From the NCBI GenBank assembly GCA_002284875.1, contig CP015604.1:992001-1056000 (forward strand): a stretch of DNA of 64,000 bases. The letters run 5' to 3'. The translations under genes were made by a program, and so were the position numbers. This document shows positions 16,988 to 26,342 of this stretch, piece by piece. Positions within the stretch are counted from its first letter, which is position 1. Every line of letters starts with the position of its first letter. Below the pieces are notes generated by a model. It was not told where the DNA came from. It saw nothing but the letters and a program-made list of their open reading frames with translations, and ran no database searches. This DNA is from Actinobacteria bacterium IMCC26103. Lineage in GTDB: Bacteria > Actinomycetota > Actinomycetes > Nanopelagicales > Nanopelagicaceae.

Positions 16988-17662
16988 ATGTTTGACGCAG
17001 TTCTCTTTGATATGGATGGTTTATTTATCGACTCTGAACCAGATTGGCATGACGCCGAATCCGAGATGATGAAAGCAAATGGTTACGCCTGGTCCCCAGA
17101 GGATCAATTGCAATGTTTGGGCGGGCCTTTATCGCGCGTGACTGAGTACATGGCTAAATGTTTGAAAGGTGCCAAGACACCAGAAGAGTTAGGCGTGATG
17201 ATCGTTGATGAGATGGTGCGCCGCATGAGTGGAAAAGTGCAGTTAATGCCCGGTTCACTTGGGTTTTCTAGGACCCTTGCTGAGGCGAAGATTCCGCAGG
17301 CTCTTGTATCGGCTAGCCCAAGGGTGATCGTCGATGCAGTGTTATCTGGAATGAAAGATAAGTATTTTGCAACAAGTGTGGCATCAGGCGATATCGCACG
17401 AACCAAACCCTTTCCAGATCCATATCTTCATGCCGCCAAACTATTGGGTGTGGATATAGAAAATTGCGTGATCTTTGAAGATTCACCCACCGGGCTAACT
17501 GCGGCTAGAGCCAGCGGCGCCTTTGTTATTGCAATTCCGCATTATGTGACGATTACTGAAGAGGCGCGTCTGAAGGTAGTTAAAAGTTTTCAAGATATTG
17601 GATTGCGCGATTTAGAAGCTTGGTCAGAGATCAACCAACGTGAGCTGGGCAGATCGCTTTAA
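16988..17662 (+). CDS. HAD family phosphatase / phosphomutase-like
   Basis: A 224-residue HAD hydrolase, subfamily IA with an alpha-helical cap. Motif I is DMDG (D8 nucleophile, D10 acid). Motif II is the Ser in LVSASP. Motif III/IV includes FEDSPTGLTAARASG. These resemble sugar-phosphate phosphatases and beta-phosphoglucomutases (YniC/HxpB-like). A good AGAGAGTAG ribosome site lies upstream. It follows metH by 36 bases and may share its transcript. The final 32 bases overlap the convergent nuclease gene. Substrate unknown. Confidence 0.88.
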   Translation: MFDAVLFDMDGLFIDSEPDWHDAESEMMKANGYAWSPEDQLQCLGGPLSRVTEYMAKCLKGAKTPEELGVMIVDEMVRRMSGKVQLMPGSLGFSRTLAEAKIPQALVSASPRVIVDAVLSGMKDKYFATSVASGDIARTKPFPDPYLHAAKLLGVDIENCVIFEDSPTGLTAARASGAFVIAIPHYVTITEEARLKVVKSFQDIGLRDLEAWSEINQRELGRSL

Positions 17663-18386
17663 AGAAGCACCAGTCACAAAGCTTGGTAGGTCGTGGACGA
17701 AATTCATTCTTTTCGATTGCGCGCAGAATCTCATCTGCGATATCAAAGAGAATTCTTTCAGTCTTCGCAAGATCTTGTTCGGTAGGAACGCTCTTTACTA
17801 AACGGGTATCGCCTAGGTAAATCAACTGAAGTAGCTTTGGGATAACGCCGTTATTCTTCCAATACAACAGGGCATAGACGCGTAGCTGAAAGAGCGCTTT
17901 CTCTTCCCATCCCGGTTTCGGAGATTTTCCAGTTTTATAATCCACGATACGAACTTCGCCAGTTGGAGCAACATCTAAGCGATCTACATAACCATGAAGA
18001 TAAAGTTTTTCAGAGAGATCCATCTCCAAATGGAGTTCGCGATAAGTAGGTTCAAAGGTATTTGGTTTCTCTAACGTGAAATAATTACCTAATAGCTGTT
18101 CGGCACGAGCAAACCAGGCGCCTTCATCAAGAACTAATTCTGCAATTGCGGGATTTTCAGAGATCTGCGCCTGCCATCTACTCGGCAATAGTTCGGTGGC
18201 CCGTTGTAGATCACGATCTTTGGCCGGAAGCTCGAAGAGATCTTCAAGGACGGTATGGATCAACGTTCCGCGTTCGGCATCGATGCTAGGCGGCTCTGGT
18301 AGCAGGTCGATAGTGCGATATTTGTAGAGTTGTGGACAGTTATTAAAGTCATTGATGCGGCTAGGTGAGAGGCGCAACTGGTCCAT
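17631..18386 (-). CDS. RecB-family PD-(D/E)XK exonuclease with four-Cys cluster
   Basis: A stand-alone nuclease of about 251 residues in the RecB/Cas4-like group. The start chosen is ATG 18386, giving MDQLRLSPSRINDFNNCP. An upstream extension of 43 residues is Cys-rich nonsense that runs through the divergent trmI start. The core nuclease motif is VRIVDYKTGKSP (D-YKTG). One cysteine in FNNCPQLYKY and a C-x2-C-x5-C group at LCDWCFFKAIC form the pattern that binds a 4Fe-4S cluster in AddB and Cas4. Actinobacterial homologues (beside trmI in mycobacteria) are annotated RecB family exonuclease. Role in repair is inferred. Confidence 0.85.
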   Translation of the reverse strand: MDQLRLSPSRINDFNNCPQLYKYRTIDLLPEPPSIDAERGTLIHTVLEDLFELPAKDRDLQRATELLPSRWQAQISENPAIAELVLDEGAWFARAEQLLGNYFTLEKPNTFEPTYRELHLEMDLSEKLYLHGYVDRLDVAPTGEVRIVDYKTGKSPKPGWEEKALFQLRVYALLYWKNNGVIPKLLQLIYLGDTRLVKSVPTEQDLAKTERILFDIADEILRAIEKNEFRPRPTKLCDWCFFKAICPAHVG

Positions 18387-18434
18387 AGAGAAGGAAGATA
18401 CAGCCTTTGCGCTGATAACGCTTAAGATGCACCT

Positions 18435-19325
18435 GTGTCGAAGACCGGTAAAGATCCAGCAAGCGCAGCAGCAACGCGCAATCGTGGTGTCTTCGTTGCC
18501 GGAGATCGCGTGCAACTAACTGATCAAAAAGGAAAGATTTATAGCATCACAATTACGCCTGGAAAAGAGTGGCATACCCACAAAGGTTGGATCATTCACG
18601 ATGATCTAATTGGCCTTCCCGAAGGTTCTGTTGTCAGCACAAGTGCAGGTTTAAAGTTCACCGCTTTCATTCCGCTGTTAACGGATTACGTCCTATCCAT
18701 GCCGCGGGGGGCAACAATCGTCTACCCCAAAGATTCAGCGATGATCGTTGGATTTGCAGATATTTTTCCGGGCGCACGCGTTCTTGAAGCCGGCGTTGGT
18801 AGCGGTGCACTAACCCTTTCGCTTCTGCGCGCCGTAGGTGCAGCAGGTCATGTGCATTCAGTTGAAAGACGAGAAGATTTCGCTGAAAATGCAAAATTGA
18901 ATATTGAGAATTATTTTGGGGGAGCGCCCAGTAATTGGTCTCTTGATATTGGTTCGGTTCAAGAAAAGACCTTTGATGAAGATTTCGATCGGGTAATTCT
19001 AGATATGTTGGCACCTTGGGAATGTATTGAGATGGCAGCGAAAGTGCTTCGTCCTGGTGGCGTCTTTATGGCATATGTTGCAACTGCAACTCAGCTATCT
19101 GCAACTGCGGAAGCGCTAAAGGATGATGGCCACTTCACCGAACCTGAGAGTTTTGAAAGTATGGTTCGTGGTTGGCACCACGAAGGTCTAGCGGTACGTC
19201 CACAACAACGGATGATTGGTCACACCGGATTTCTGATATTCGCCCGACGTATGGCCCCTGGAGTCGAAGTATTAGCGCGCCGGAGACGCCCGGCGAAGGG
19301 TTCCTACGGTGTCGCGGAAGACTGA
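18435..19325 (+). CDS. trmI: tRNA (adenine-N1)-methyltransferase TrmI
   Basis: SAM-dependent enzyme that forms 1-methyladenosine at position 58 of tRNA; 296 residues, a homotetramer in the family. The N-terminal beta domain (about 1-80) is followed by the Rossmann domain with ARVLEAGVGSGALTLSLLR as the SAM motif. VILDMLAPWECIEMA is the catalytic region. The start is GTG 18435, 48 bases from the divergent nuclease start. In most actinobacteria the next genes are mpa, dop, pup, prcBA and pafA; here pafB starts 17 bases inside trmI. Confidence 0.93.
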   Translation: MSKTGKDPASAAATRNRGVFVAGDRVQLTDQKGKIYSITITPGKEWHTHKGWIIHDDLIGLPEGSVVSTSAGLKFTAFIPLLTDYVLSMPRGATIVYPKDSAMIVGFADIFPGARVLEAGVGSGALTLSLLRAVGAAGHVHSVERREDFAENAKLNIENYFGGAPSNWSLDIGSVQEKTFDEDFDRVILDMLAPWECIEMAAKVLRPGGVFMAYVATATQLSATAEALKDDGHFTEPESFESMVRGWHHEGLAVRPQQRMIGHTGFLIFARRMAPGVEVLARRRRPAKGSYGVAED

Positions 19326-20259
19326 ACGGTTAGTTAATTTAACTATCGCGCTTCTTGCGACCAAGCGTTACCTAACCAAATCGGAAATTTTTCGAACGGT
19401 AGATGGCTACGAAGGTAACGATGAGAGCAAAGAGCGCATGTTCGAGCGCGACAAGGACGATCTTCGCAATCTAGGAATAGAGATCGAAGTTGGAACCTTT
19501 GATCCACTATTTGAAGACGAATCTGGTTATCGAATTAAGCCTGAGAATTATCAATTCCAATTAGGTGAAGTTAACGCTGCAGAGATCGCTCTTCTATCGC
19601 TAGCTGCGCAAGCTTGGCGGGGAGCTTCGCTTGGAACTTCCGCACTGAGTGCGCTGAATAAATTGCATTCCATCGGTATTGAAAGCGACTCCGAACTCAT
19701 TCCTGACTTAGCTCCTTCGATAGTTAGTGAAGATACAAATCTACCTATTGTTATTTCGGCGATTACGTCCCGTACCGTTCTATCGTTTTCATATATAAAC
19801 GAAGCGATGCAATCTGAAGGTAGAGCCATAGAACCCTACGCAGTGGCTGCACGCCATGGGCATTGGTATTTGCTAGGCAGTGATCTCGATCGCAAGGCGC
19901 AACGTATATTTCGATTAGATCGAATCTCCGGCCCTGCCAAGCTCCAGGGCAGAACAGGCAGCTATGAAATACCTTTAAATATCGATATCGACGCAGCTTT
20001 TTCTACGCAACAGCCGCTGCAATCTGCCACCATTTTACTCAGAGATGGTCGGGCAATAAATCTTAGAACTCGCACGCAAACGATTACCGATTTCGAGACA
20101 GAAGAAGGCTGGCAGCGAGTAACCATTCAGTTCCGAGATCGCGAACGTTTTGTGGAAGAAATTCTCTGGTATGGCAGCGATGTAATTGCTCTGGAACCGC
20201 AAGATCTTCGTGAGCAGATCATTGGACTCTTGAAGGAAGGTTTCCAACGTTATGGCTAA
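19309..20259 (+). CDS. pafB: WYL-domain transcriptional regulator PafB
   Basis: First half of the PafBC transcription activator, which in mycobacteria turns on the LexA/RecA-independent DNA-damage regulon. 316 residues: an N-terminal winged helix (LTKSEIFRTVDGYEG...ERDKDDLRNLGIEI, residues 25-65), then a WYL domain around 160-215 with HWYLLGSD and the arginine-rich IFRLDRI. A C-terminal WCX-like segment follows. The start is GTG 19309, overlapping trmI by 17 bases, and the gene overlaps pafC by eight. Pairing with pafC and position before tatA make the assignment firm although pafA is absent. Confidence 0.9.
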   Translation: MSRKTERLVNLTIALLATKRYLTKSEIFRTVDGYEGNDESKERMFERDKDDLRNLGIEIEVGTFDPLFEDESGYRIKPENYQFQLGEVNAAEIALLSLAAQAWRGASLGTSALSALNKLHSIGIESDSELIPDLAPSIVSEDTNLPIVISAITSRTVLSFSYINEAMQSEGRAIEPYAVAARHGHWYLLGSDLDRKAQRIFRLDRISGPAKLQGRTGSYEIPLNIDIDAAFSTQQPLQSATILLRDGRAINLRTRTQTITDFETEEGWQRVTIQFRDRERFVEEILWYGSDVIALEPQDLREQIIGLLKEGFQRYG

Positions 20260-21166
20260 ATCTCAGAGCACTCCAGTCGATCGAGCAGCACGTCTCTTAG
20301 ATCTGGTGCCATTTATCTCAACTCATCAAGGTATTGCAATAGGTGATCTAGCGCGAGAGTTTGAACTATCCGAGAACGAATTACTGAGTGATCTAAATAC
20401 GCTTTGGATGTGTGGACTTCCCGGATACACCCCGCTTGAGTTGATTGATCTCGAGTTTGAGTCAGGATACGTCAGCATCCGTAACGCCGAAGTTCTGCAG
20501 CGAGTACGTTTACTGACCAAACAGGAACTAGTGATAATTCTTTTGGGTCTTGATATTTTGCGAGATTCATTTACAGCAGACCGCACCGATTTAGTTAACG
20601 CGGTAGATAGTTTGATAGCCAAGATTAGAAAGATAGTTGGAGATGTGGCAACGGCAGCACCGATTGTTGACTCCAGTCACCGCGCAATAATTGGACAAGC
20701 GCTCCAAAGTCGACAGGATCTGGAGATTTCTTATCATTCGACGATTCGTGATGCAATATCAACCAGACGAATTACCCCACTTGATTTATCTGTGGATTTT
20801 GGTTTTGAAGTCTTAAATGCCTATTGCCATTCCGTGGCAGGCTTTAGAACTTTTCGCTTGGATAATATGAAGTCAGTCACTCTAACAAGTGCAACTTCTG
20901 AAATTCCAAAGGAACGAGATGAGAACGAATTTCAATGGACGGTGCACATCTCTTCGCGCCTGCGCACATCTTTAGAACGTTTTAGAGAGAATCCAGGGGA
21001 TCTGCCAACTGATAATGAGTTAACGGTAATCGTGAAATCCTTTAGTCAAGACTGGTTGCTACGTAGCGCCCTAAGTACCTTGGGTTCAGTCGAGGTGAAA
21101 GGTCCACACGAGGCTCGCACCTCCATTGCAAAGGCTTGCCGACAGGCGCTAGAACTTTACGAGTAA
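20252..21166 (+). CDS. pafC: WYL-domain transcriptional regulator PafC
   Basis: Second half of the PafBC activator; 304 residues. The winged helix (about 15-75) includes [31 protein letters not shown]. The WYL domain (about 150-215) has [21 protein letters not shown] and FRTFRLDN, but EVLNAYC replaces the literal W-Y-L stretch, as is usual for PafC. Its eight-base overlap with pafB fits 1:1 synthesis of a heterodimer. Tat translocase genes follow after a short gap. Confidence 0.88.
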
Positions 21167-21415: not shown

Positions 21416-22189
21416 ATGGCGACCTCCGTCGGCGGTCGTATGCCGCTTATAGAACATCTACGTGAATTTCGTAAGAGAGTTGTTCGCTCCGCAATTGCGA
21501 TCAGCCTCGGGTCAATAGTTGGTTGGTTCTTCTACAACGAAATCATCACCAAATTAGCCGAACCGGTATGTGATTTAAAAGCGGCCCAAGCAAGCGGTGC
21601 AAATAATTGCGGAGCTCTTTATATTAATGGGGTCCTTGGTCCACTTAATCTGCAAATAAAAGTTGCCATCCTTACGGGTGTAATTCTCGCCGCTCCAATT
21701 TGGCTCTACCAACTATGGGCCTTTATCGCTCCTGCCCTACATCGCCGAGAGAAGCGATATTCGGTTTTATTCTTCGTCGCCGCAACGCCATTCTTCGCAG
21801 CTGGCACTTATCTTGGTTACTCAATACTTCCAATAGCGGTTCGGGTTCTCTTTGGTTTTACTCCCGATGCGCTGAATAACCTGGTGAAATTTGATGATTA
21901 TTTGGATTTTGTAATGCGGGCGATTCTGCTCTTTGGAATCGCTTTCGAACTGCCCGTGTTTCTAGTTACCTTTAATTTAATTGGTTTCCTAAGTGGAGCA
22001 GCCATCTTGAAACCGTGGCGGATTTGGATATTCGCAATAACCTTATTCGTTGCCGGATTTACTCCAAGTGCTGACCCGTTATCGATGATCTTATTGGCGC
22101 TACCTTTAATTGGCCTTTACCTGCTGGCAGGCGTTTTCGCCCTTCTAAACGATAGGCGCCGCGCGAAGAAGAACGCCCTAGTCGAGTAG
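21416..22189 (+). CDS. tatC: Sec-independent translocase subunit TatC
   Basis: Polytopic receptor for twin-arginine signal peptides; 257 residues with six predicted membrane helices. The cytoplasmic N-terminus RMPLIEHLREFRKRVVRSA carries the conserved LxEHLxELRxR-type motif. An acidic residue in the GIAFELPVF helix corresponds to the conserved Glu of the family. The C-terminal tail DRRRAKKNA is basic. It follows tatA by five bases and precedes dagK by nine, so it is part of one long plus-strand operon from trmI to ppm. Confidence 0.95.
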   Translation: MATSVGGRMPLIEHLREFRKRVVRSAIAISLGSIVGWFFYNEIITKLAEPVCDLKAAQASGANNCGALYINGVLGPLNLQIKVAILTGVILAAPIWLYQLWAFIAPALHRREKRYSVLFFVAATPFFAAGTYLGYSILPIAVRVLFGFTPDALNNLVKFDDYLDFVMRAILLFGIAFELPVFLVTFNLIGFLSGAAILKPWRIWIFAITLFVAGFTPSADPLSMILLALPLIGLYLLAGVFALLNDRRRAKKNALVE

Positions 22190-22198
22190 TCAATTTCA

Positions 22199-23071
22199 AT
22201 GTGGGCAATAGTTATTAATCCAATTTCCGGCGGCGGGCTTGGCGCAGTATTAGGTCGCGAAGTCGCCGGATATTTTGCGTCCAAAAAACTGAGTTACAGC
22301 ATCATTACCGCGACCTCGTCACCAAAACTACGTAGTAATCTCGTTGAGTTCCTAGATAGCAACGTTAATGGCGTTGAAGGAGTTATCTCGGTCGGGGGAG
22401 ATGGACTGGCTCATTTGGTCTTGCAAGTTGTTGTTCCTCGGAGAATCCCATTCAGCGTGGTGGCAGGTGGTACAGGCAATGATTTCCTGCGCGCAACTGG
22501 CTGGGATCTAAATGAGGTCACTGAACAGTTAGATGCGGTTACAACACGAACACCAAAGCCAATTGATTTAGGTCTGGTTGATTCTGAATGGTTTGGGGCG
22601 ATTCTCTCCACCGGCTTTGATTCAGTAGTAAATGAGAAAGCCAATACTTTGAAATGGCCTAAGGGCCCGATGAAATATAACTTAGCAATCGCCATGGAGT
22701 TGCCAAAATTTAGACCGCTGGAATATCAGATAGAAATGGATGGCCAAAGTATTGCAACTGAGGCGATGCTAATCGCGATCGGAAACGGTAATAGTTATGG
22801 GGGAGGCATGAAGGTTTGCCCTGACGCTGATATGTCAGATGGCCTCTTTGATGTGATGGTTCTGCGCCCAGTGAGTAAATTGGAGTTCCTGCGAGTCTTC
22901 CCAAAGGTTTTCTCTGGAAAACACATAGACCATCCCCAAGTCGATATCTATAGAACCGCCAAGGTTTCACTTCACGCCGAAGCGATTGCATATGCCGACG
23001 GTGAAAGAATCGGTGGATTACCAGTTCGCGCTGAATGTATGGCAGGTGCTGGACTATCGTGGACCCCGTGA
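22199..23071 (+). CDS. Diacylglycerol kinase family lipid kinase
   Basis: A 290-residue DAGK-catalytic-domain protein, likely phosphorylating diacylglycerol or a related lipid at the membrane. The nucleotide site SVGGDGL is at about 65-70 and GGTGNDFLR at 90-97, both diagnostic. A further ISTGFD-like motif (LSTGFDSVVNEKA) and the GNGNSYGGGMKVCPDA segment complete the fold. It recycles phospholipid head-group turnover products in the related mycobacterial and Bacillus DgkB proteins. The stop overlaps the helY start as GTGA. It is commonly found between tatC and helY in actinobacteria. Confidence 0.9.
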   Translation: MWAIVINPISGGGLGAVLGREVAGYFASKKLSYSIITATSSPKLRSNLVEFLDSNVNGVEGVISVGGDGLAHLVLQVVVPRRIPFSVVAGGTGNDFLRATGWDLNEVTEQLDAVTTRTPKPIDLGLVDSEWFGAILSTGFDSVVNEKANTLKWPKGPMKYNLAIAMELPKFRPLEYQIEMDGQSIATEAMLIAIGNGNSYGGGMKVCPDADMSDGLFDVMVLRPVSKLEFLRVFPKVFSGKHIDHPQVDIYRTAKVSLHAEAIAYADGERIGGLPVRAECMAGAGLSWTP

Positions 23072-25443
23072 CGACTCCAGCTGCCAAATATGCCGCGGCG
23101 AAGTCTCGCAAAAGCCACCCCATTACTGAGGAATTTATCGCCCAATTTGAATTTCCCTTTGATCAATTTCAGATCGATGCCTGCCACGCCGTAGAAGGTG
23201 GCCATGGAGTTCTTGTTGCGGCTCCTACAGGCGCAGGCAAGACGGTGGTCGGTGAATTTGCCGCTTTTCTGGCTCTAAGTAATGGGAAGAAATGTTTCTA
23301 CACAACCCCAATCAAAGCTCTTTCCAATCAGAAATTTCAAGAGTTTGTAGCTCGCTTCGGTGAAGATCGGGTCGGACTTTTAACCGGCGATACCAATATA
23401 AATTCCGAAGCCGATATTTTAGTTATGACCACGGAAGTATTGCGAAATATGCTCTATGCCAATTCATCGACCTTGGTAAATCTTGGCTCTGTAGTGATGG
23501 ATGAAGTGCATTATCTGGCCGATAAATTCCGCGGCGCCGTCTGGGAAGAAGTATTGATCCATTTAATGGAATCAGTACAAGTCATATCGCTTTCTGCAAC
23601 AGTTTCCAATGCCGAAGAGTTCGGAGAATGGCTGGGTGAGGTCCGTGGTCAGACCGAAGTTATCCTTAGTGAGCATCGCCCAATTCCGCTTTATCAACAC
23701 GTTTTGATTAATTCGAGTTTGGTCGATCTCTTTAGTCAGCCGGGCAAGATTAATCCGGAAATTTTGGCCCTAGAGCGCGAGGCTTTACGTAAGGTGCGAT
23801 TTCCTAGAAATCGCCGGGAGCAATGGGGCGCTCAAGAATCGCGTTTGTCGCGCGCCGAAATAATTGAGAAGCTAAATCGCGAAGATATGTTGCCGGCTAT
23901 TACCTTTATCTTTTCTCGAATGGGTTGTGATGCCGCAGTAAAGCAGTGTTTAGCAGCAGGTTTAAAGCTAACTAACACAGAAGAACGCGCTGAAATCTTG
24001 GCAACGGCGGCCCGCTTTACCGCGAATCTTCCTGAAGAAGATTTGGAAGTACTTGGTTATCGCGAATGGATCACCGCTCTAGAACGTGGAATTGCTGCAC
24101 ACCATGCTGGTCTGCTACCGAGCTTTAAGAATGCGGTAGAAGATCTCTTTCAACGCGGTCTGGTGAAAGCAGTCTTTGCCACCGAAACTTTAGCCTTGGG
24201 AATTAACATGCCAGCGCGCACAGTAGTTTTGGAAAAGCTAACTAAGTGGAATGGTGAAGCGCATGTTCCAATTACTCCGGGGGAGTACACCCAGTTAACT
24301 GGCAGAGCCGGTCGTCGCGGTATCGACATTGAAGGAAATGCCGTTGTTCAGTGGTCGCCAACAGTTGATTCGGCTACAGCAGCAGGCCTAGCGTCTACTC
24401 GAACTTATCCATTGCGGTCATCATTTACTCCGACTTACAACATGGCGATCAACTTAATTGCTCGTTTTGGTCGCGAACGCGCTCATGGCAGCCTGGAATC
24501 CTCCTTTGCTCAATTCCAAGCAGATCGCGCTGTCGTTGGATTGGTACGACAAATTAAGAAGAATGAATCAGCGCGCACTGAGTTAATTGAGAGCGCCAAA
24601 TGCCATCTCGGCGATTTCGAGAGTTACGCCTTGCTACGCTCTGAAATTAAGGAGTTAGATAAGTTACTTTCTAAACGCGATGGCAGAAAGACTTTCGATA
24701 ATCGCCAGCGCAGTCACATGGAAGGTGAGATAGATAATTTGCGGCGCTCCATGCGAAATCATCCTTGCCATGGCTGTAACGACCGCGAAACCCATGCTCG
24801 TTTCGCCGAGAGAGCAGAACGTTTAGTCCGTGAATCAGATGGGCTGCGTGCACGAGTCGAAAATCGCACACATGTTATCGCCAAGACCTTTGATCGTATA
24901 TGCGATGTACTGACCCACTTGGGTTATATCGAAGGTGAAAAACCTTTGGCGCAAGGAAAGATCCTAGCCAAGATATATGCAGAATCTGATTTATTGCTTA
25001 CGGAAACCATTAGAGCGGGCGTTTTAGATAACCTAACCGCTCCCGAATTGCTATCTACAGTCTCATCAATGATCTTTCAATCTCGATCACGAGATGAATA
25101 CGCCCCAAAGATGCCACATCAGAACGTAGCAAACGCACTCGCGGAGATAACAAGGCTCTGGGCTAAATTAGAGGCGATTGAAAATGATTTCGATGTAAAG
25201 ACTCAGAAAGAGCCGGACTTTGGATTTGCCTATATTTCATACCGCTGGGCGCAAGGTAATTCTTTAACGAATGTATTAAAGGGTAGCGATATGTCGGTCG
25301 GTGATTTTGTTCGCTCCATTAAGCAATTGATGGATTTAATGGTTCAGATCGGTGGAGCTAGCGAAGCGCTTCGTCCTGTCTGCCGAGAAGCGATCAAGCG
25401 TTTAGATCGTGGAGTAATTTCATATATGGTGGATGAACTATGA
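23068..25443 (+). CDS. helY: DEAD/DEAH-box RNA helicase HelY (Ski2/Mtr4-like)
   Basis: A 791-residue superfamily 2 helicase, probably acting in RNA processing or decay. The start is GTG 23068, overlapping dagK by four bases. An upstream ATG (23035) would overlap dagK by 37 and add 11 unlikely residues. Motifs in order: APTGAGKT (about 52-59), TTPIKALSNQ, MTTEVLRNML, DEVHYL (about 145), LSATVSN, then FATETLALGINMPA and QLTGRAGRRGID of the second RecA domain. The C-terminal third resembles the DSHCT region of Ski2/Mtr4. A CHGCNDRETH motif near residue 570 might bind metal. Conserved position after tatAC supports HelY. Confidence 0.92.
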   Translation: MTTPAAKYAAAKSRKSHPITEEFIAQFEFPFDQFQIDACHAVEGGHGVLVAAPTGAGKTVVGEFAAFLALSNGKKCFYTTPIKALSNQKFQEFVARFGEDRVGLLTGDTNINSEADILVMTTEVLRNMLYANSSTLVNLGSVVMDEVHYLADKFRGAVWEEVLIHLMESVQVISLSATVSNAEEFGEWLGEVRGQTEVILSEHRPIPLYQHVLINSSLVDLFSQPGKINPEILALEREALRKVRFPRNRREQWGAQESRLSRAEIIEKLNREDMLPAITFIFSRMGCDAAVKQCLAAGLKLTNTEERAEILATAARFTANLPEEDLEVLGYREWITALERGIAAHHAGLLPSFKNAVEDLFQRGLVKAVFATETLALGINMPARTVVLEKLTKWNGEAHVPITPGEYTQLTGRAGRRGIDIEGNAVVQWSPTVDSATAAGLASTRTYPLRSSFTPTYNMAINLIARFGRERAHGSLESSFAQFQADRAVVGLVRQIKKNESARTELIESAKCHLGDFESYALLRSEIKELDKLLSKRDGRKTFDNRQRSHMEGEIDNLRRSMRNHPCHGCNDRETHARFAERAERLVRESDGLRARVENRTHVIAKTFDRICDVLTHLGYIEGEKPLAQGKILAKIYAESDLLLTETIRAGVLDNLTAPELLSTVSSMIFQSRSRDEYAPKMPHQNVANALAEITRLWAKLEAIENDFDVKTQKEPDFGFAYISYRWAQGNSLTNVLKGSDMSVGDFVRSIKQLMDLMVQIGGASEALRPVCREAIKRLDRGVISYMVDEL

Positions 25444-26342
25444 CTTTAATGCTGCTCGATAGCGCCTCGCTCTGGTATCGCGCTTATTACGGAATGCCCG
25501 ACACGATGTTGGCACCAGATGGAACATCGGTAAATGCGATCCGTGGTTATCTCGATATGACAGCGCGTTTGATAACTATGTATTCGCCGAAACGGATAGT
25601 TGCCTGCATCGAAGGGGATTGGCGACCTTCTTGGCGAGTAGATCTTTGGCCCGATTACAAAGCAAATCGCCTAGAAGAAGATGGTGAAGGCGAAGAAGAG
25701 CCAGATTTATTAACTCCGCAAATTCCGATTCTGCTCGATTTACTAGATGATTTCGGCATACCGATGGTCGGCGTTGATGATTACGAAGCCGATGATGTTA
25801 TGGCAACTTTTGCAGTCAAAGAGAAGGGCCCCATTCGTATAGTCACTGGCGATCGAGACCTCTTTCAACTAGTCGATGATAAACGCGACGTTAAGGTCGT
25901 TTACTTGGCCAAAGGTTTATCGCAACATGATCTAGTTGATATCTCTTGGGTTGCCCGTAAATACGCCATCCCGGGAGATCGCTACGCACTCTTTGCCATG
26001 TTCCGCGGTGATCCGTCAGATGGCCTTCCCGGAGTACGCGGTATCGGAGAAAAGGGCGCTGCTGTCATCGCTAACCACTTTTCCGATGTCGATGAAGCGC
26101 TACAAGGTGCACAAGATGCTCATCCTGCATTAACGCCAGCGTTGGCTAAGAAGATTATTGCGGGAGCAGATTATTTAAAGATCGCACCGACTTTGGTGCA
26201 TTGTGCAAAAGATGTTGCTCTACCAACTTTAGATATCTCTATGCCGCAAGCCCCGAAAGATCTATCAAAGATTTATGAAATGAAAGATCGTTATGGTCTG
26301 GGGGCTAGCGTAGATCGGTTGATTGCAGCCTTGAAATGGTAG
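25440..26342 (+). CDS. 5'-3' exonuclease (flap endonuclease family)
   Basis: A 300-residue stand-alone homologue of the DNA polymerase I N-terminal nuclease. The metal-binding acidic residues are seen in LMLLDSASLWYRAYYG near the start, the cluster VGVDDYEADDVMATF (about 110) and VTGDRDLFQLVDD (about 140). The helix-hairpin-helix is DGLPGVRGIGEKGAAVI near 195. It overlaps helY by four bases and lnt by seven. It may remove RNA primers or flaps alongside PolA, which is not in the window. Confidence 0.92.
   Translation: MTLMLLDSASLWYRAYYGMPDTMLAPDGTSVNAIRGYLDMTARLITMYSPKRIVACIEGDWRPSWRVDLWPDYKANRLEEDGEGEEEPDLLTPQIPILLDLLDDFGIPMVGVDDYEADDVMATFAVKEKGPIRIVTGDRDLFQLVDDKRDVKVVYLAKGLSQHDLVDISWVARKYAIPGDRYALFAMFRGDPSDGLPGVRGIGEKGAAVIANHFSDVDEALQGAQDAHPALTPALAKKIIAGADYLKIAPTLVHCAKDVALPTLDISMPQAPKDLSKIYEMKDRYGLGASVDRLIAALKW

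Follow-up and report, generated by a model that had tools for sequence, protein, structure and literature searches.

The trmI-pafB overlap of freshwater Actinobacteria as a probable scar of stepwise Pup-proteasome loss, with PafBC retained

The window studied here, a 64,000-nucleotide stretch of the genome of Actinobacteria bacterium IMCC26103, raises the question of how pafB and pafC come to stand directly behind trmI. According to PMC8223512, the locus of the Pup-proteasome system (PPS: Pup, PafA/Dop, Mpa and the 20S subunits PrcA and PrcB) in mycobacteria and other actinobacteria has the same inner gene order as the flanks seen in the window, and differs in carrying mpa, dop, pup, prcB, prcA and pafA, all of which the window lacks. 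The order given in the first-pass annotation, namely a nuclease gene on the opposite strand followed by trmI, pafB, pafC, tatA, tatC, helY and an exonuclease gene (Table 1), is borne out by Pfam domains and, for tatA, by the translation, and a lipid kinase gene between tatC and helY, absent from that annotation's gene list, is to be added. The arrangement of the outer flanks, with the nuclease on one side and tatA, tatC, helY and the exonuclease on the other, is the same in mycobacteria. The overlap of 17 bases that had been described, with no gene in between, is likewise confirmed by the open reading frame coordinates, the DNA and the Pfam domains, the final codons of trmI and its stop falling within pafB.

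Table 1. Features of the trmI-pafB region, in positions of the window
Feature	Position	Strand	Basis or remark
PD-(D/E)XK (RecB/Cas4-like) nuclease	17631..18515	-	Pfam PDDEXK_1, E 1.1e-39; flanks the actinobacterial PPS locus on the left
trmI, tRNA m1A58 methyltransferase by family	18435..19325	+	TrmI-like_N, GCD14; 3' end compared with relatives
trmI/pafB overlap, 17 nt	19309..19325	+	Putative former site of mpa-dop-pup-prcB-prcA-pafA and the isomerase gene
pafB, WYL-domain regulator subunit	19309..20259	+	Pfam WYL and WCX; phmmer matches to PDB
pafC, partner subunit	20252..21166	+	HTH_PafC, E 7.4e-30, WYL; PDB PafBC/PafC matches
tatA, 64 aa	21216..21410	+	Translation; name from sequence and position
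tatC	21416..22189	+	TIGR00945 above cut-off; PF00902
Diacylglycerol/lipid kinase	22199..23071	+	YegS_C, DAGK_cat
helY-like DEAD/DSHCT helicase	23035..25443	+	DSHCT, DEAD
5'-3' exonuclease	25440..26342	+	5_3_exonuc_N, 5_3_exonuc

With the window's pafB start as the reference point (in genome G007 the gene may start one codon earlier), the same junction was found in 8/8 examined genomes of the window's genus g1, Candidatus Planktophila (acI freshwater Actinobacteria), and its sister genus g2, that is, in the window and in 7/7 other fetched genomes, and it recurs in 40 of the best 80 loci kept out of 582 relatives in the named collection, a set that is biased to close kin. Since it is common to these relatives and to the named-collection loci, it reflects neither an assembly slip nor chance. 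An annotation effect, in which the true start of pafB would lie downstream, could be invoked because the GTG start codon is a prediction only; it is very unlikely, given that the match to solved PafB already starts at residue 4, whose codon still lies inside trmI, and that relatives share similar N-terminal residues.

The junction alone cannot tell a loss of the PPS from its move elsewhere in the genome, and the first-pass annotation had offered a clean loss and a relocation side by side. The window's genome (G000) is a single contig of 1,456,516 bases and 99.99% complete, and profile searches of this complete sequence gave 0 matches each to PF05639 (Pup), PF03136 (PafA/Dop), PF17758 (the OB domain of Mpa/ARC) and PF00227 (PrcA/PrcB). 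Across a sample of the window's order comprising 121 genomes from 13 genera (in 100 of these, completeness is 90% or more and contamination 5% or less), each of the four families was found in 3/121 genomes, always the same three members of genus g8 (G034, G059 and G110), with E-values from about 1e-174 for PafA/Dop to 1e-13 for Pup; none of the four was found in the other 118 genomes. As the searches that are blank in the single-contig genome match g8 so strongly, the PPS has been lost and not relocated, and relocation is rejected unless a replicon is missing from the assembly, its remaining probability being close to nil. PafC was detected by profile in 117/121 genomes of the order and in 13/13 genera, the four genomes without a match being drafts of 120-360 contigs; this, together with the adjacent pafB and pafC genes of the window, upholds the earlier statement that PafBC is retained.

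The presence of the PPS in 1/13 genera only might alternatively mean that the clade never had the system and that g8 acquired it by transfer. This appears extremely unlikely, as the g8 PPS genes lie between trmI and pafB in the usual order, PF03136 is found in 167/178 sampled genomes of the class outside the window's family, and g8 branches first within the order. The last point comes from a tree of six linked flanking proteins (33 rows, 2252 columns, four outgroup rows), in which g8 is sister to the rest with support of 96/96, followed by g5 plus g13 and then by the remainder, in which g1 and g2 form one clade with support of 100/100.

The class sample as a whole contained PF03136 in 167/196 genomes, and the 29 genomes without it divide into 18 from the window's family and 11 from outside it; of these 11, two were recorded directly and nine deduced from their absence among the positives. 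These 11 outsiders, all of which carry PafC and PafB matches, are 10 genomes of family f31 and one of f29 (G255). The lack of PF03136 in G255 is likely an assembly gap, since its pafB contig starts just upstream of the gene, with an FKBP match from base 3, and G213 of the same genus (g71) has the ligase. The 10 sampled f31 genomes are 2.8-4.3 Mb in size and 100% complete, and no f31 genome was seen among the PF03136 positives. All six f31 loci read have trmI 1.1-1.3 kb upstream of pafB, followed by pafC and tatC; an FKBP match lies ahead of pafB in five of them, and the 14 kb of these six loci gave no match to the g8 PPS proteins. Loci L061-L070 and L282-L287 of f31 keep both pafB and pafC. 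The many PPS-bearing families in the class imply that the losses in f31 and in the window's order would be independent.

The intervening stages can be followed at the trmI-pafB junction of relatives within the order. The g8 genome G034 (locus L037, minus strand) has a gap of 7.3 kb holding the PPS and FKBP genes, in the order trmI, mpa, dop, pup, prcB, prcA, pafA, two FKBP-type ORFs on the opposite strand, pafB and pafC; genomes of this genus measure 1.8-1.9 Mb. In 19/19 genomes outside g1/g2 that lack the PPS block (ten genera), a gap of 550-810 nt harbors an opposite-strand ORF of 163-249 aa. By their letters these ORFs read as lipoprotein isomerases, FKBP-like in 16 and cyclophilin-like in the other three, and Pfam runs on 3 of the 19 confirm one cyclophilin and two FKBPs. 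The three cyclophilin-like versions, which stand between trmI and pafB in place of an FKBP-like one, belong to g5/g13 (L079, L080, L091), where one isomerase fold has apparently taken over the position of another. Among the best 80 of 582 relatives in the named collection, 21 further loci have an FKBP gap of 548-982 nt and one has a PPS gap of 9.3 kb; the remaining 18 are unmeasurable, 14 being loci with PPS genes labelled as other families and four beginning too near pafB.

The genomes with an isomerase gap point to more than one cut. A single excision straight to the 17-nt overlap is rejected, in view of the genomes whose gap contains an isomerase-like gene; of the clean loss first suggested, the loss stands and the cleanness does not, at least two steps being needed. 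In g1/g2, the PafB codons near K-[STI]-E supply the bases of the trmI stop, whereas relatives have their own variable TrmI tails, and the g1/g2 overlap likely arose when the isomerase gene was deleted at a later stage. For microhomology at the junction there is little sign: in the 19 gapped genomes without the block, many shuffles match the longest word shared by the end of trmI and the start of pafB, G054 being the exception with 11/300 shuffles as good, uncorrected for 19 tests. Public MAGs filed under Bifidobacterium breve or Streptomycetaceae (L202, L203, L218, L225, L229, L264, L272; L208, L235, L240) also have junctions of the type seen in the window's order and are probably mislabelled.

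The reading that we favor, with a probability of roughly 85%, is that a stepwise loss of the PPS locus left the trmI-pafB overlap as its scar, and that PafBC was kept as a pupylation-independent activator of the damage response. The ancestor of the freshwater order would have had the arrangement trmI-mpa-dop-pup-prcB-prcA-pafA-(isomerase)-pafB-pafC. In a first step, after the split of g8, the block from mpa to pafA would have been lost and the isomerase gene would have remained; in a second, before Planktophila and its sister genus separated, the gap would have lost the isomerase gene as well, leaving trmI with a stop within pafB. Given the basal position of g8, one PPS loss after its split is enough, though this single-loss reading derives from one tree of six linked proteins and the first step could have been several deletions. 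PafBC would have been kept because it needs no pupylation to activate DNA-damage genes through sigma-A: damage would produce ssDNA, the ssDNA would bind the WYL domain of PafB, and ssDNA-bound PafBC would act with RNA polymerase at promoters bearing a PafBC element upstream of the -10. This mechanism is taken from work on Mycobacterium smegmatis; its parts are conserved here, and by analogy it is presumably active in this organism.

The conservation of these parts begins with the domain architecture. The window encodes adjacent HTH-WYL-WCX genes, one with a PafC-type HTH; Pfam recovers PF13280 and PF25583 in PafB and PF19187 and PF13280 in PafC, scoring no HTH in the former and no WCX in the latter. 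Solved relatives are available as PDB 7p5x, 9fnd/9fne and 6sj9; phmmer aligns the window's PafC with PDB PafC, and its PafB with 7p5x (E 2.5e-46) and 6sj9 (E 4.6e-42), while PafB of five outgroup genomes is 30-38% identical to it. Entries 7p5x, 9fnd and 6sj9 are of M. smegmatis or A. aurescens origin, the solved relatives of the window's PafB being PafB of the former and PafBC of the latter; the species assignment follows the literature, the PDB rows giving molecule names. The window shares with these proteins the domain layout, the recognition-helix arginines and the residues of the ssDNA site, and with M. smegmatis the two adjacent pafB and pafC genes; it differs from both species in having no PPS in the cell and in the overlap of pafB with trmI. 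Its PafB has R43 and R47 (R46 and R50 in M. smegmatis numbering) as well as R172, Y187, R195 and R199, so that all four ssDNA-site residues of the WYL domain (R181, Y196, R204 and R208) are present. Both recognition-helix arginines are kept in 27/27 PafB rows from genomes without the block; of the ssDNA-site residues, R181 is kept in 27 of these rows, Y196 in 26 and R208 as R in 21 and K in 6, with R204 being R in 11, K in 10 and another residue in 6. Mutation of the recognition-helix arginines has the phenotype of a deletion in M. smegmatis according to PMC6789036, and the four ssDNA-site residues are those named in PMC11804915.

PafBC might nevertheless be a relic kept by chance or for another function, with LexA alone running the response. 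LexA is kept, the promoter motif treated below lacks genome-wide enrichment, and PafB and PafC diverge faster than most of their neighbors, the identities between the window and G001 being 52% and 41%, against 81-84% for TrmI, TatC, HelY and the exonuclease and 64% for the lipid kinase. However, the two are the fastest of six proteins in the PPS-bearing pair too (76% and 72%, against 91-96% for the others), and the dN/dS of PafB is 0.090 in both pairs without the PPS (G001/G003 and G077/G111) and 0.091 in the pair with it (G034/G059), dS being saturated in all of these except G077/G111. No relaxed selection on PafB after the PPS loss is seen, the values being alike with and without the block. 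Given also the invariant recognition-helix arginines, the motif kept at recA and the presence of PafC in every genus, we regard a relic as unlikely.

The promoter evidence concerns the RecA-NDp element, reportedly described by Gamulin in 2004, with a consensus that has TT at the first two positions. The form GTCRGTG-N8-TANNNT upstream of recA is common to the known promoter and the window's genome; for scoring we used YYGTCRGTG-N8-TANNNT over 12 positions, the first two bases having been loosened after sight of the sequences. Passages of PMC2897130, PMC5087735 and PMC8223512 name the promoter. The recA motif reaches 11-12 of 12 positions in 22/24 genomes without the block and in 5/5 with the PPS, at most 2/300 mononucleotide shuffles being equally good in each genome. 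The two weaker cases are G016 (10 of 12, 22/300 shuffles) and G106 (9 of 12, 103/300 shuffles), and the comparison excludes G116, for which no recA locus was obtained. In G000 the motif CCGTCGGTGGCCTTCCGTACCTT matches 12 of 12, with about 60 bases between its end and the likely GTG start; 16/24 genomes without the block begin it with CC, as against the TT of the reported consensus. The well-matched recA motif of G000 is the second one, nearer recA, and in four Planktophila genomes (L116, L117, L119, L121) the motif abuts the start of an SOS-like box (TCGAACAGAT...).

Genome-wide, GTCRGTG-N8-TANNNT is not enriched over a reversed control (37 against 26 matches in seven genomes; 3 against 5 in G000), nor is TTGTCR-N11-TANNNT in G000 (13 against 26). 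As the motif is indistinguishable from background, a regulon beyond recA is not established, and the expectation of PafBC motifs ahead of DNA-repair genes holds for recA and not for a separable regulon. Among the 37 matches, recA is hit in 7/7 genomes and the LysM gene divergent from lexA in two, with uvrD/pcrA, ssb and recR found once each; the recR match falls in a PPS-bearing genome, and most other matches precede no recognized repair gene. One genome from each of g1, g2, g3 and g8 also has the motif 257-321 nt ahead of an NlpC/P60-like gene, these genes resembling each other (L163, L170, L146, L145; Pfam was run on the G000 protein), and a TTGTCAGTG-type motif lies directly before a PLD/SNF2-helicase gene of G000 that looks like a defense or repair gene (G000:C1:84804-84824, minus strand; L149).

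The lexA side offers a second candidate site. Ahead of the LysM gene that diverges from lexA, a core TGTCRG[CT]G is found between two SOS-like boxes in 17/20 genomes without the block, at an offset from box 1 of 28-29 in 16 of them and 27 in one; the boxes are 52-62 nt apart with a -10-like stretch between them (L182-L199, L161, L168). The core is absent from both g8 genomes examined (0/2), from both g5 genomes and from G116, and the motif in G000 matches 10 of 12 positions (35/300 shuffles). By its sequence this promoter looks as though it is under both LexA and PafBC, much as at Rv2719c, the mycobacterial neighbor of lexA. The LexA-type HTH (PF01726) is found in 109/121 genomes of the order with matches well above the cut-off, although this profile also matches non-LexA-like controls, for example in archaea. 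Loss of LexA as the reason for the retention of PafBC is rejected on this count, and with LexA kept both arms of the response remain.

Taken together, the loss of the whole PPS and the retention of PafBC with a matching recA promoter suggest a regulator independent of the proteasome, as the first-pass annotation had supposed, with conservation, selection and promoter evidence in its support. According to PMC5656591 and PMC8223512, deletion of pafBC has no effect on pupylation or on the degradation of proteasome substrates; with this result known, a PafBC function outside the proteasome is in itself no novelty. Part of the locus (prcAB) has also been lost secondarily in Corynebacterium glutamicum (PMC8223512 and PMC6466877), but that species retains the pupylation enzymes, whereas the window's lineage has lost pupylation too. 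What appears to be new is the complete loss of pupylation with PafBC kept, along with the intermediates, PafBC itself being already known. Our searches of the open-licence literature showed no published account of this loss, though it may be described elsewhere, and the main text of the acI genome paper PMC5301498 has no word starting with 'proteas' or 'pup'. The uncoupling of PafBC and PPS throughout a lineage contradicts a published review that credits all Actinobacteria with the PPS locus; an older survey has proteasomes as nearly universal in the phylum (PMC4255298).

In M. smegmatis, Pup-dependent removal of RecA is reportedly needed to end the damage response (PMC8223512), and we infer that in the window's lineage such removal after stress must be absent or done otherwise. 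We are evenly divided over a wider reading, in which PafBC would be the fixed backbone of the actinobacterial locus and the whole PPS a cassette open to loss from its place between trmI and the isomerase gene, with at least two such losses (in the window's order and in f31); the LexA plus PafBC response would then end without pupylation, through dilution or another protease, and in Planktophila and its sister genus pafBC would have become linked to the transcription of trmI. PafBC owes its discovery and name to its proteasome neighbors, and the two are naturally separated here. Nearly the whole order of these abundant lake Actinobacteria (118/121 sampled genomes), as well as the 10 f31 genomes, appear to have PafBC without Pup, and the natural series from an isomerase gene alone to an overlap makes the ending of the PafBC response without pupylation directly testable.
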